A stretch of DNA of 50,249 nt from Oceanispirochaeta sp. GTDB taxonomy: Bacteria; Spirochaetota; Spirochaetia; DSM-2461. The DNA is taken from contig NZ_JAQIBL010000128.1 in NCBI RefSeq assembly GCF_027859075.1, positions 1 to 50,249 on the forward strand, in the 5' to 3' direction. The notes below the pieces were generated by a model. The model saw nothing but the letters and a program-made list of their open reading frames with translations, was not told the origin of the DNA and made no database searches. The translations under genes were made by a program, and so were the position numbers. This document shows positions 2,824-43,352 of the stretch, in pieces (position 1 is the stretch's first letter; every line of letters begins with the position of its first letter).

Positions 2824-4499
2824 TAATTGGAAAGATAGAGACCCCGCTTTATTTTTCTTGTAGCTGTCTTTTCAAAGGCACTCTTCTGTATCTCAAATTT
2901 AGAGATGCGCGAGAAAAGAGGCAGCTTCTGGTTCAATTGATTTATCAAGGCATCCATGTCTTTCAGCAGTTGTTCATTTTGACAATCCCCATCATAGTCC
3001 CTGAAAAAAAGATCCTGATCTGGATATATTAACGCCGAAAGCTGCTGATCATCCAAATAGACAATCGATTCTTCAATCAGAAGAGTCGACGACAACATGA
3101 TTTCAATGACTTCTGGGTATATATTTTCACCGGAACTGCGGACGATCACATTTTTGCTTCGTCCCTTGATATAGAGGAATCCATCCCCATCCAGAATGCC
3201 CCGGTCCCCCGTCTTGAACCAGCCGTCAGGGCAGAATACGGTCGCCGTCTCTTCCTCTTTTCTAAAGTAGCCTTTCATAACCTGGGGTCCCAAGACTTCA
3301 ATATCTCCGATGCCGGATTCATCGCAATGACTGATCCGAATTTTAGTATTTCTCACAGCCTTTCCCACAGAACCGAAACGGGATTCTTTCAAGGAAGAAA
3401 ATGTAAGCAGAGGAGATGTCTCGCTGAGTCCGTATCCCAATAGATAGGGTATGCGGGCCTCTTTCATAAATGTTTCTACCTGCTCGCTGAAATTAGCTCC
3501 GCCGATTATGATACATTTTATACGCCCCCCGAAATAGTTCATAACGGATTTTCCTGCGATCCTGTAAAATCCTTTCCTCAAAAGTGGTGACATTGTAGTG
3601 GCTTTTTTCAATAAGCTCTTTGATTCAATGAGGGGCACAATTTTCTTTTGAAAAATCTTCTCAAAGATCAGAGGAACTCCGCCCAGAATTGTTGGTTTAA
3701 CCTTCTGAAAGACAATTTGGAGGTATTCAGGTGTGGGCTTTCTTTTCAAAAAGCAAATCCGTGGGCCCTTATACATGGTAGAAAGAAAAGCAGATGTGGA
3801 ACCGAATGAGTGTGCCAGAGGAAGCAGTGACAGAAGGATGGCATTTTCGTCAAAACATTCATCAATAAGATCTGTTCCCTCGTACAGATTGGTCACCAGA
3901 TTATTATGAGTTAACATGACGGCTTTGGAAAATCCGGTTGTACCCGAGGTGTAGAGTAGTTCTGCCACATCCGAAGGATCTGTGGGATAGCATCCCTGAT
4001 CATCCGCCTGGAGGGAAAGAGTGTCACTTCGATCGGTGAAAGGATTAATGTGTTGATCTCTCTTAATTTGTTCACCTTGCTTTATGATCGAAAAATCATC
4101 CATTGAAATGAGAGTTCTATTCTTCAGAGCAGGTAGACTCTCTTTGCCGACATAAGGGGGTGCCAAAATCACAGCAGCACAGCCGGAATTCTCAATGATA
4201 TGATCGATATCTAAATCGGGAAATTCTTCCATAACAGGCACAACTACGAAGCCGGCAGACATGACCGCCATAAATGAAATGGCCCAGTTGGGAGAGGCTG
4301 GACCTAGTAAAACAATAGCATCCGCTTTCTTTAAATCCTGCTGAACGAGCTTTCTTCTCAACTCAGCAACCTGCTGCCCATACTCTTTATAGCTAATAGG
4401 TTCATCATCCACAAAGTAAAGGAATGGCCGTTTTTCGTATCTTTTTACCGCTTCCTTATGAAATTCATTTATAGTATTTATTTTTAATAAGAAAGGCAT
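2820..4499 (-). CDS. AMP-dependent acyl-CoA synthetase/ligase
   Basis: 559-residue ANL-superfamily adenylating enzyme, most like long-chain fatty-acid-CoA ligases: fatty acid + ATP + CoA gives acyl-CoA + AMP + PPi. Motifs in order are LLYTSGTTGFSKAVMLTHNN (P-loop/A3), GYGLSETSPL (A5), the GWFKTGDRG aspartate (A7), KGRSKNVIVRSSGENIYP (A8 hinge) and a C-terminal lysine in KTATRKIKRGLY (A10). All core motifs are intact, so it should be active. A GAGGAG ribosome binding site lies 6 nt before the ATG, behind a strong promoter (4526-4554). It stands alone, so its role (membrane lipid recycling or fatty-acid uptake) is inferred from the family only. Confidence 0.87.
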   Translation of the reverse strand: MPFLLKINTINEFHKEAVKRYEKRPFLYFVDDEPISYKEYGQQVAELRRKLVQQDLKKADAIVLLGPASPNWAISFMAVMSAGFVVVPVMEEFPDLDIDHIIENSGCAAVILAPPYVGKESLPALKNRTLISMDDFSIIKQGEQIKRDQHINPFTDRSDTLSLQADDQGCYPTDPSDVAELLYTSGTTGFSKAVMLTHNNLVTNLYEGTDLIDECFDENAILLSLLPLAHSFGSTSAFLSTMYKGPRICFLKRKPTPEYLQIVFQKVKPTILGGVPLIFEKIFQKKIVPLIESKSLLKKATTMSPLLRKGFYRIAGKSVMNYFGGRIKCIIIGGANFSEQVETFMKEARIPYLLGYGLSETSPLLTFSSLKESRFGSVGKAVRNTKIRISHCDESGIGDIEVLGPQVMKGYFRKEEETATVFCPDGWFKTGDRGILDGDGFLYIKGRSKNVIVRSSGENIYPEVIEIMLSSTLLIEESIVYLDDQQLSALIYPDQDLFFRDYDGDCQNEQLLKDMDALINQLNQKLPLFSRISKFEIQKSAFEKTATRKIKRGLYLSNY

Positions 4500-41444: not shown

Positions 41445-42290
41445 TCAGGCAACGTAAGCTTTCAGAAACTGAATTCTGGAGGGATGCTGTAGTCTGGTAA
41501 TGGCTTTTTTCTCGATCTGTCTGATTCTTTCTTTAGTCAAACCGTAGTGATCTCCAATTTCTTTGAGAGAAAGAGGCTTTATACCATTCAAACCAAATCT
41601 TTTTTCTAGTATTTCTGATTCTTTAGGAGTCAGAGTAGAAAGAACACTGTTGATATCTTCAGACAATAATATATCCATGACCAGATTATCCGGAGTTTTG
41701 TATTGATCATCTTCAATAAAATCACCTAAGACACTGTCTTCACTGTGGGTCGGTGATTCAAGAGAGACAAGGTCTCTCGAAATGTTCATCAATTTTTTGA
41801 CATCATCCACATGGATCCCTACATTATTTGAAATTTCTTCTGCATCGGGATCTTCTCCATTTATCTTGGTCAATTCCTTACGGACTTTTTCAATCTGGAC
41901 CAGCTCGTTGGCCCGATTCAAGGGGAGTCTGATCATTCTGGATTTTTCATACACAGCTTTAAGAATAGATTGTCTGATCCACCATACAGCATAGGATATG
42001 AAATGATATCCTTTTTCTGGATCATACTTTTCGATAGCATTGATTAAACCAATATTACCTTCGCTGATAAGATCATCCAGAGGGAGTCCCTGATTCTGAT
42101 ATTTCTTGGAAACATTAACAACAAAACGCAGATTGGACCGCACGAGTCTGTCTTTGGCAATCTGATCACCTTTAACAGCTTTTCTTGCAATATCATCTTC
42201 TTCTTCCCTGGTTAAAAGAGGAATTTTATTTATTTCTTTCAGGTATATTGAAAGAATATTTTCATCATCGTTGTATTTTGTATAGGCCAT
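41445..42290 (-). CDS. RNA polymerase sigma-70 family factor (group 2, RpoD/RpoS-like)
   Basis: 281 residues. It has region 1.2 (IYLKEINKIPLLTREEEDDI, about 15-35), region 2 (NLRFVVNVSKKYQ; LDDLISEGNIGLINAIEKYDP; FISYAVWWIRQSI), region 3 and region 4.2 (LKEIGDHYGLTKERIRQIEKKA). Region 1.1 is missing, and the length of about 280 fits group 2 alternative factors rather than the housekeeping RpoD. Spirochaetes carry such a factor beside groES, as here, and Borrelia RpoS is of this class. AGGAGG is 6 nt before the ATG. A sigma-54-like element sits just upstream (42314-42329). Target promoters are not predicted. Confidence 0.92.
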   Translation of the reverse strand: MAYTKYNDDENILSIYLKEINKIPLLTREEEDDIARKAVKGDQIAKDRLVRSNLRFVVNVSKKYQNQGLPLDDLISEGNIGLINAIEKYDPEKGYHFISYAVWWIRQSILKAVYEKSRMIRLPLNRANELVQIEKVRKELTKINGEDPDAEEISNNVGIHVDDVKKLMNISRDLVSLESPTHSEDSVLGDFIEDDQYKTPDNLVMDILLSEDINSVLSTLTPKESEILEKRFGLNGIKPLSLKEIGDHYGLTKERIRQIEKKAITRLQHPSRIQFLKAYVA

Positions 42291-42313
42291 TGAGGTCCTC
42301 CTGCCTATATAAG

Positions 42314-42329
42314 TACAAATACCGTGCCA
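42314..42329 (-). promoter_or_regulatory. Candidate sigma-54 (-24/-12) promoter of the sigma-factor gene
   Basis: Minus strand TGGCAC-GGTAT-TTGTA. It matches the known TGGCAC-N5-TTGCA pattern except T for C in the -12 GC, and the G after TGGCAC also agrees with the usual TGGCACG. The predicted start lies near 42303, about 13 nt before the ATG and directly ahead of AGGAGG. A poor sigma-70 alternative (TATATA with a weak -35) cannot be excluded. Confidence 0.4.
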
Positions 42330-42479
42330 AAATTCAGGACTATCCCACTATTAAATATAATTGATTACTATAAAAGAAATTATTAATATTAAATCTTATT
42401 TTTAATGACTGATAGAAATTTAAAATGAAGAACCTTGAGTCAGCCTGACCCAGACATGGTTTAAAAGCCTTTTTATGTG

Positions 42480-42935
42480 TCAGAATGAACCATTTAATAG
42501 ATCTTTGAGGGTATTGATGCCTCCACAGCACTCTCTATAGGGTCTACCACTACCACAGAAACAGTCATCATCAGACCGCAATTTTCTTTTTTTTGTAAAA
42601 TCGATGCATATGAGTGACTCCTCGTCGGCAACAAAATAAGGAAAAACAAGAGTTTGATGATAAAAAGTATTTATTTTATCATCTGTATCCATATGACCCA
42701 CTTGGGGGGATTCACTTATATTCTTCCAATACTCCCCTATAATCTGAAGGATGACATCTTTTTCTGCTTCTGAGCAAAAACGCTTCTGAGTTTTTCGTTT
42801 GAGGTATCGCTCTACCTGAATGGCGATAAAAGCCTGATGGTCATCTTCCCGGCTGTTCTTCTGGCGGGGCATTCCATAGGGATTCATTTCGTAAAGAGAT
42901 TGTTCATCTTTATTATTTTTTTGCCGGGCAACCAT
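42480..42935 (-). CDS. SEC-C motif protein
   Basis: 151 residues. The C-terminus has a SEC-C zinc-binding motif CFCGSGRPYRECCGG, with C125, C127, C136 and C137 as ligands, as seen at the end of SecA and in many small proteins of unknown function. The N-terminal part (about 25-115) is helical and not recognised. The start has no Shine-Dalgarno, but TTGCTT-17-TATTTT ends 6 nt before the ATG. It is divergent from groES and upstream of the sigma-factor gene on the same strand, from which it is separated by 189 nt. Function unknown. Confidence 0.82.
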   Translation of the reverse strand: MVARQKNNKDEQSLYEMNPYGMPRQKNSREDDHQAFIAIQVERYLKRKTQKRFCSEAEKDVILQIIGEYWKNISESPQVGHMDTDDKINTFYHQTLVFPYFVADEESLICIDFTKKRKLRSDDDCFCGSGRPYRECCGGINTLKDLLNGSF

Positions 42936-43085: not shown

Positions 43086-43352
43086 ATGACAATTAAACCC
43101 TTAGGAGATCGTGTACTGCTGAAAGTAGTTGAAGCAGAAACCAAAACTGCCTCTGGTCTGTATATTCCTGAAACTGCTCAGGAAAAGACTCAGACTGCAA
43201 CCGTTGTGGCCATTGGTGACGATAAGGAGCTGATCACTGTGAAAGCAGGTGACAAGGTAATGTATGACAAGTACGCAGGAACAATAATCAGCATTAATGA
43301 TGTGGATCACCTCATCATTAAAATGCAGGATATCATTGCAATTGTAGAATAA
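43086..43352 (+). CDS. groES: Co-chaperonin GroES
   Basis: 88-residue Cpn10, the heptameric lid of GroEL. It begins [20 protein letters not shown], the family N-terminus, and carries the mobile-loop region ([19 protein letters not shown]) and the C-terminal strand [22 protein letters not shown] at 43073-43079 fixes this ATG rather than the upstream in-frame TTG at 43071. groEL does not follow; a terminator comes 20 nt after the stop. Such separation of groES and groEL is known in Treponema. It is divergent from the SEC-C gene. Confidence 0.95.

Follow-up and report, generated by a model that had tools for sequence, protein, structure and literature searches.

The closest described relative of the locus reported here is the Rrp2-RpoN-RpoS pathway of Borrelia burgdorferi, in which a sigma-54 promoter likewise stands before a group-2 sigma gene (PMC1976401; PMC11109971). 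The Borrelia rpoS promoter was reported to be enhancer-independent, and binding of Rrp2 was not seen within 238 bp (PMC1976401). The sigma-54-to-sigma-S cascade has been studied as a feature of the Lyme disease Borrelia, and a wide-ranging comparative survey of sigma-54 cites Borrelia for the control of sigma-S (PMC3162934). In T. denticola, heat induces the sigma gene TDE0937 2.8-fold, oxygen 21.8-fold and osmotic downshift 14.0-fold (PMC2965109); the main text of that paper makes no claim of a sigma-54 promoter for the gene, and the words 'promoter', 'cascade' and 'rpoN' are absent from it. Hpk2 of the same organism has been described as a PAS oxygen sensor, and its Rrp2 as a predicted, unstudied sigma-54 activator (PMC12070737). 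In the open-access literature that we searched (titles and abstract openings, most subscription papers lying outside it), neither TDE0937 nor the rpoS of any other spirochaete was reported to have a sigma-54 promoter or enhancer.

Here we analysed a stretch of Oceanispirochaeta sp. DNA of 50,249 nucleotides, called the window below, which carries a group-2 sigma gene next to groES (Table 1). The protein contains the Pfam regions 1.2, 2, 3 and 4 and lacks region 1.1, meeting the criterion for group 2. Against the RpoS model TIGR02394 it scored 272 bits, below the model cut-off of 378.7. Its nearest named relatives, in the top rows of the search, were Spirochaetes assemblies at 62-69% identity. 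The ATG lies at 42290-42288 of the minus strand, and the control region upstream of it is bounded by the end of the SEC-C-like gene. The neighbourhood with groES recurs at the orthologous sigma genes of genomes G054 and G049, and in T. denticola groES is TDE0934 and the sigma gene TDE0937. Orthology with TDE0937 was further supported by the published primers, both of which match the G049 gene, with groES near, at 19 of 20 bases. The window's genome holds other sigma factors as well. A third one (L390, on contig C203; 322 aa) is 37% identical to the window protein; its relatives in G014 and G060, with only 6-7 of 10 positions matched, lack a sigma-54 promoter in their vicinity.

Table 1. Features of the sigma gene, its control region and its neighbours, in window coordinates.
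Feature	Position	Strand	Basis
Group-2 sigma-70 family factor, 281 aa, orthologue of T. denticola TDE0937	41445..42290	minus	domain, tree and orthologue comparisons
Shine-Dalgarno AGGAGG, 6 nt before the ATG	42297..42302	minus	sequence reading
Predicted transcription start	42303	minus	inferred from -24/-12 geometry, 12 bases after position -12; not mapped
Sigma-54 (-24/-12) promoter TTGGCACGGTATTTGTA	42314..42330	minus	sequence reading and conservation
Promoter-proximal enhancer dyad TGGGTCAGGCTGACTCA	42436..42452	minus	weight matrix and genus alignment
Distal enhancer dyad TGGTTCATTCTGACACA	42476..42492	minus	exactly 40 bp upstream of the proximal dyad
Upstream gene, 151 aa, C-terminal Cys-rich motif, SEC-C-like by eye	42480..42935	minus	weak NCBIfam match only
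groES, divergent neighbour	43086..43352	plus	GroES named from sequence

Between the sigma gene and its upstream neighbour, the minus strand reads TGGCACGGTATTTGTA at 42329-42314, within the stretch TTTTGGCACGGTATTTGTACTTATATAGGCAGGAGGACCTCAATG. A preliminary description, made from the sequence alone, had claimed a sigma-54-like element directly before a group-2 sigma gene; this held, and our reading agrees with it in location, spacing, the GT deviation and a start near 42303. We compared the element with the well-known -24/-12 promoter consensus, asking for GG near -24 (in TGGCAY), GC near -12, the fixed spacing of the two doublets, rpoN and activators in the genome, and upstream activator sites. 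The first of these is met by TTGGCAC at 42330-42324, with GG at 42328-42327. The second is not, as the doublet at 42316-42315 is GT where the consensus has GC. The 10 bases from GG to GT are the spacing of -24/-12 promoters. The last two requirements, rpoN together with activators and activator sites in the form of two dyads 40 bp apart, are met. We regard the orthologous site as a member of the sigma-54 promoters and the window copy as a one-base variant of it, RpoN-dependent transcription being inferred. A scan for sigma-70 promoters listed none at this site on the minus strand, and a sigma-70 promoter there was rejected on this ground.

Taken alone, the window gives weak evidence: the degenerate consensus with up to two mismatches had 9 matches in the whole window versus 17 expected, not above chance. 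For the stricter pattern TTGGCAYN5TTGC with at most one mismatch, about 0.001 matches are expected per 165 nt on one strand (window's genome, reversed-pattern control). The promoter is well beyond chance because it is conserved among orthologues. At E 1e-75 the sigma gene was found in 323 of 388 genomes of the class, representing 116 of 126 genera; the genomes without it include at least 13 of the Borrelia-like family f20 and one T. pallidum-like genome of 1.1 Mb. From a sample of 149 genomes, which is biased toward better protein matches, 147 upstream regions were taken; L129 and L139 were dropped with too little upstream DNA, the second gene copies L154, L228, L229 and L234 were excluded from the counts, and the named GenBank loci L002-L020, used at other points of the analysis, are not among the 147. 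Allowing one mismatch in its 10 positions, TGGCAY-N5-TTGC occurred within 165 nt upstream in 143 of the 147; the opposite strand gave a match in 1 of 147, and dinucleotide shuffles predict 1.5. Forty of the 42 families covered had at least one match, and in 39 all regions matched. The promoter was missing in four regions (G045, G059, G064 and G123).

The second G of the GG doublet was invariant in all 145 elements with at least 8 matching positions. Across the 143 elements, the second base of the -12 doublet was C in 138, T in 4 and A in 1; the identical 10-base doublet spacing follows from the construction of the search pattern. The T is confined to the window's own genome (G000), G002, G003 and G004, and their congener G005 has C, so GT for GC is a change within the window's genus. 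A genome-wide shift to TTGT promoters was unsupported by eye, TTGT being no commoner than TTGA among the part of the one-mismatch matches inspected. As separate observations, two divergent sigma copies about 4 kb apart (L143 and L154, G059:C64) differ in that only one keeps a sigma-54 promoter, and in the T. denticola-like G049 the element upstream of 4198 (L226) has TAGCAT in place of TGGCAT at -24, one GG letter off, with the GC at -12 intact. The promoter copy of this relative of the best-studied species looks weak.

The upstream regions contain a second conserved element. In a motif-free search for gapped words in the 143 regions, TGGG-N6-TGAC ranked first (39 regions versus 0.7 expected); it is half of the dyad TGKGTCA-N3-TGACMCA. 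We scored this dyad with a weight matrix, leaving the tested family out of its own model, in 142 regions of at least 200 nt (one of the 143 with a promoter was too short). A dyad of at least 9 bits was present in 132 of the 142 and not found in the other 10; shuffled or reversed DNA gave 2-3 per 142. Two or more sites above 7 bits occurred in 105 regions. Pairs spaced 40/41 bp occurred in 101 of 142 regions, spread over 31 of 39 families, and no control had any among its 142. When the model omitted the tested site alone, the count was 101 for a spacing of 40 bp and 12 for 41 bp.

In the window, the proximal dyad begins 123 bases before the initial T of TGGCAC, and the distal one overlaps the final codons of the SEC-C-like gene. 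Aligned within the genus, both dyads, the -24/-12 element and the ribosome site stand as islands amid diverged DNA. The single perfect TGNGTCANNNTGACNCA site of the window's genome lies in the sigma gene control region, and the second window dyad is among six further places with one mismatch. Across 61 genomes, the perfect consensus TGKGTCANNNTGACMCA has 6 occurrences and its reversed-pattern control none; 3 of the 6 stand at the sigma gene (G002, G015 and G034). The perfect dyads away from the sigma gene (G035:C314:928, G060:C79:30027 and G039:C11:54232) are candidate further targets of the same activator. We considered a terminator or other hairpin and rejected it because the letters of the arms (TGKGTCA), not merely their pairing, are conserved and the pairs keep the 40/41 bp spacing. 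Overall, the conserved element before this stress-type sigma gene is very likely a genuine sigma-54 promoter with an enhancer; the sequence evidence is strong, and there are no biochemical or transcript data.

The gene for RpoN is present in the window's genome, in all 39 of the searched genomes with completeness of 90% or more and contamination of 5% or less, and in 57 of the 61 overall. The window's genome also has ten strong sigma-54 activator genes and three weak matches. Two of these activators, L084 (G000:C23) and L082 (G000:C94), appeared GAF-domain-like by eye, one lying directly after a ribosomal protein S1-like gene and the other beside an ammonium-transporter-like gene. Contig C171 carries the order cvpA-holB-kinase-activator. 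G054, the Borrelia-like G044 (kinase and activator being hk2-rrp2) and the T. pallidum-like G094 share it; the kinase reading frame of G094 seemed short. These gene names were assigned by reading the proteins, and G044 (917-kb chromosome) and G094 are called Borrelia-like and T. pallidum-like by their size and gene order. The putative recognition helix is IGRKTLH in both the window's genus and Borrelia and IGRKTLY in the T. pallidum-like homologue; IGRKTLH/Y is nearly identical in 19/21 homologues, those where the search string matched, Borrelia included.

A match to the Rrp2 group at E 1e-154 or better was found in 53 of 61 genomes, and 3 more have partial copies. No clear Rrp2 orthologue was found in 5 of the 61 (G001, G009, G013, G017 and G024), four of which hold the sigma gene. 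Conversely, Rrp2 occurs without a sigma orthologue at E 1e-75 in G007, G039 and G044. In G033, G058 and G054, 4-7 kb separate the activator gene from the sigma gene. G031, G036 and G056 each have a single activator gene at E 1e-30, which belongs to the Rrp2 group, and all have the promoter, with dyad scores of 23.1, 20.3 and, weaker, 14.8 bits. By this elimination the activator of the window promoter is likely the Rrp2 orthologue, binding data being absent. A separate observation concerns the T. pallidum-like genome of 1.1 Mb: it has retained the operon with the Rrp2-type activator (L409, G094:C1:557000-566000) and has no target sigma gene at E 1e-75; its activator must therefore have other work or be a relic. 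The rrp2 homologue of the window's genome itself (L230, G000:C171) has an in-frame TGA and TAA close together at about 3005-3016, near Walker B. The stops arise by substitution, with no gap relative to three relatives, and the copies of G002, G004 and G005 have none. They may reflect a real loss, leaving the cascade broken in this strain, or a fault of the assembly.

In the tree, the window sigma family forms a clade of the class (98/98), and Borrelia RpoS joins another gene of the window's own genome (100/99; long branches). This gene (L410, G000:C19:4128-4967) lies beside flgJ and tsaD in the order flgF-flgG-flgJ-sigma-tsaD, and the order in G044 is flgF/flgG, one gene, flgI, flgJ, rpoS, one gene, tsaD (names from sequences in both cases). 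The possibility that the window gene is the orthologue of Borrelia RpoS was rejected by the tree, weak alone given the long branches, together with this gene order, which places rpoS on C19. The window protein is 36% identical to Borrelia RpoS.

The C19 gene has a sigma-54 promoter of its own, TGGCATGAAAATTGC, just before its start (near 4085-4100), and an upstream dyad, TGTATGATAAATGATACA, unlike that of the window. Nine further genes of the C19 type, selected on length and alignment range without sight of their upstream DNA, all have a sigma-54 promoter (at least 9 of 10 positions) and, by eye, an upstream flgJ-like gene. The rpoS genes of G044 and three more genomes of the Borrelia family have such a promoter too, making 10/10 non-Borrelia and 4/4 Borrelia-family flgJ-linked loci. 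TGTAT-N8-ATACA lies about 112 bp upstream in 8/10 of the non-Borrelia loci (six exact, two partial). In the four Borrelia-family regions this dyad was not above shuffles in any, and all four gave 8 points of 12 for TGTATA-N6-TATACA. The Rrp2-type dyad reached at most 6.9 bits in all 14 flgJ-linked rpoS regions.

These results bear on the remaining claims of the preliminary description. Of the checks it had proposed, both rpoN and enhancer-binding activators were found in the genome, and the element is kept across the class; both outcomes are in its favour. Its suggestion of an RpoN-RpoS style cascade outside Borrelia is supported, but the window sigma is not the orthologue of Borrelia RpoS, that being the C19 gene. 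The GT deviation that it noted is real, with the correction that it is peculiar to the window's genus. Its claim that, if the element is functional, the sigma-54 cascade is older and broader in spirochaetes than assumed is supported by the promoter in 40/42 families. What it missed is the enhancer: unlike the reportedly enhancer-independent Borrelia rpoS promoter, the window promoter has a two-site enhancer.

The promoter, the paired dyads, rpoN, an Rrp2 homologue and class-wide conservation are all established from sequence alone. We propose, as the likely reading, that the sigma-54 control region in the window is complete, that it serves a group-2 sigma factor of the general-stress type, and that the Rrp2 orthologue acts on it via the dyads; no transcript or binding data are available. 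An Rrp2-orthologous response-regulator enhancer-binding protein, made from the cvpA-holB-hk2-rrp2 operon, would bind the two TGKGTCA-N3-TGACMCA dyads, 40 bp or about four DNA turns apart and 120-165 bp upstream of -24. The bound activator would then loop to RNA polymerase-sigma54 held at TTGGCAC-N5-TTGT and open the promoter complex by ATP hydrolysis. The sigma factor so produced would reprogramme polymerase for stress genes. That Rrp2 and not another activator binds the dyads, and that the promoter and DNA looping function in the textbook sigma-54 manner, is inferred only, and the stress regulon is inferred by analogy with the induction of TDE0937 in T. denticola.

Three other explanations deserve consideration. 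The first accepts the promoter and the enhancer as real and has an activator other than the Rrp2 orthologue bind the dyads. In its favour, the window's genome has about ten strong activator genes, including the two GAF-domain-like ones, and the dyad spacing GTCA-N3-TGAC resembles that of the NorR site. Against it, G031, G036 and G056 have only the Rrp2-type activator and yet keep promoter and dyad, and the rpoS-type promoters carry a different dyad, so the TGKGTCA dyads are not a general sigma-54 feature. We consider it unlikely. Also improbable is that the element has decayed in the window's genus and that transcription of the sigma gene now starts at a sigma-70 promoter. The restriction of GT to G000, G002, G003 and G004, the stops in the genome's own rrp2 and the TATA-like letters that come after the -12 element speak for decay. 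On the other side, GG, spacing, dyads and ribosome site are kept in all five gene-bearing members of the genus, with the rest diverged; rrp2 is free of stops in G002, G004 and G005; and the sigma-70 scan is silent on the minus strand at the site. A chance resemblance without any sigma-54 promoter could appeal to the motif being no commoner in the window than expected, and is all but excluded by 143/147 against 1.5 expected and by paired enhancers at fixed spacing in 101/142.

Beyond the proposed Rrp2-driven control region, we lean, without much confidence, toward a bolder reading, in which the ancestor of the class ran two parallel sigma-54-to-sigma cascades with different enhancers. In one, Rrp2 and the TGKGTCA dyads would have served the TDE0937-type stress sigma; in the other, another activator and TGTAT-N8-ATACA would have served the flgJ-linked RpoS. 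Borrelia would later have lost the first sigma and both enhancers, with Rrp2 now driving rpoS without an enhancer. If so, Rrp2, for whose DNA-binding domain no site at rpoS is known, would originally have bound the TGKGTCA dyad. In any case the dyads offer a concrete candidate binding site for Rrp2, and the origin of the enhancer-independent Borrelia system becomes testable.

Compared with the known systems, the window arrangement shares with the Borrelia pathway an Rrp2 orthologue, here only the likely activator, the same cvpA-holB-hk2-rrp2 order and a nearly identical DNA-binding helix. It differs in its target sigma, which belongs to another family and does not meet the criterion of being an RpoS orthologue, and in its conserved two-dyad enhancer, neither dyad standing out at Borrelia rpoS; enhancer-independent activation, a further mark of the Borrelia cascade, does not apply to promoters of the window type. 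The flgJ-rpoS-tsaD locus is alike in having a group-2 sigma gene with a sigma-54 promoter and differs in sigma family, neighbours and dyad. Hpk2/Rrp2 of T. denticola is probably the same kinase-activator pair as in the window system, and we predict that TDE0937 is under Hpk2-Rrp2-RpoN control, which would join the oxygen induction of the sigma gene to an oxygen-sensor kinase. We conclude that the window system is a variant of the RpoN-to-sigma cascade, differently built and not the Borrelia cascade itself. Most of the families examined in the class keep this sigma-54 switch before a stress sigma gene, together with a pair of enhancer sites that Borrelia rpoS does not have.
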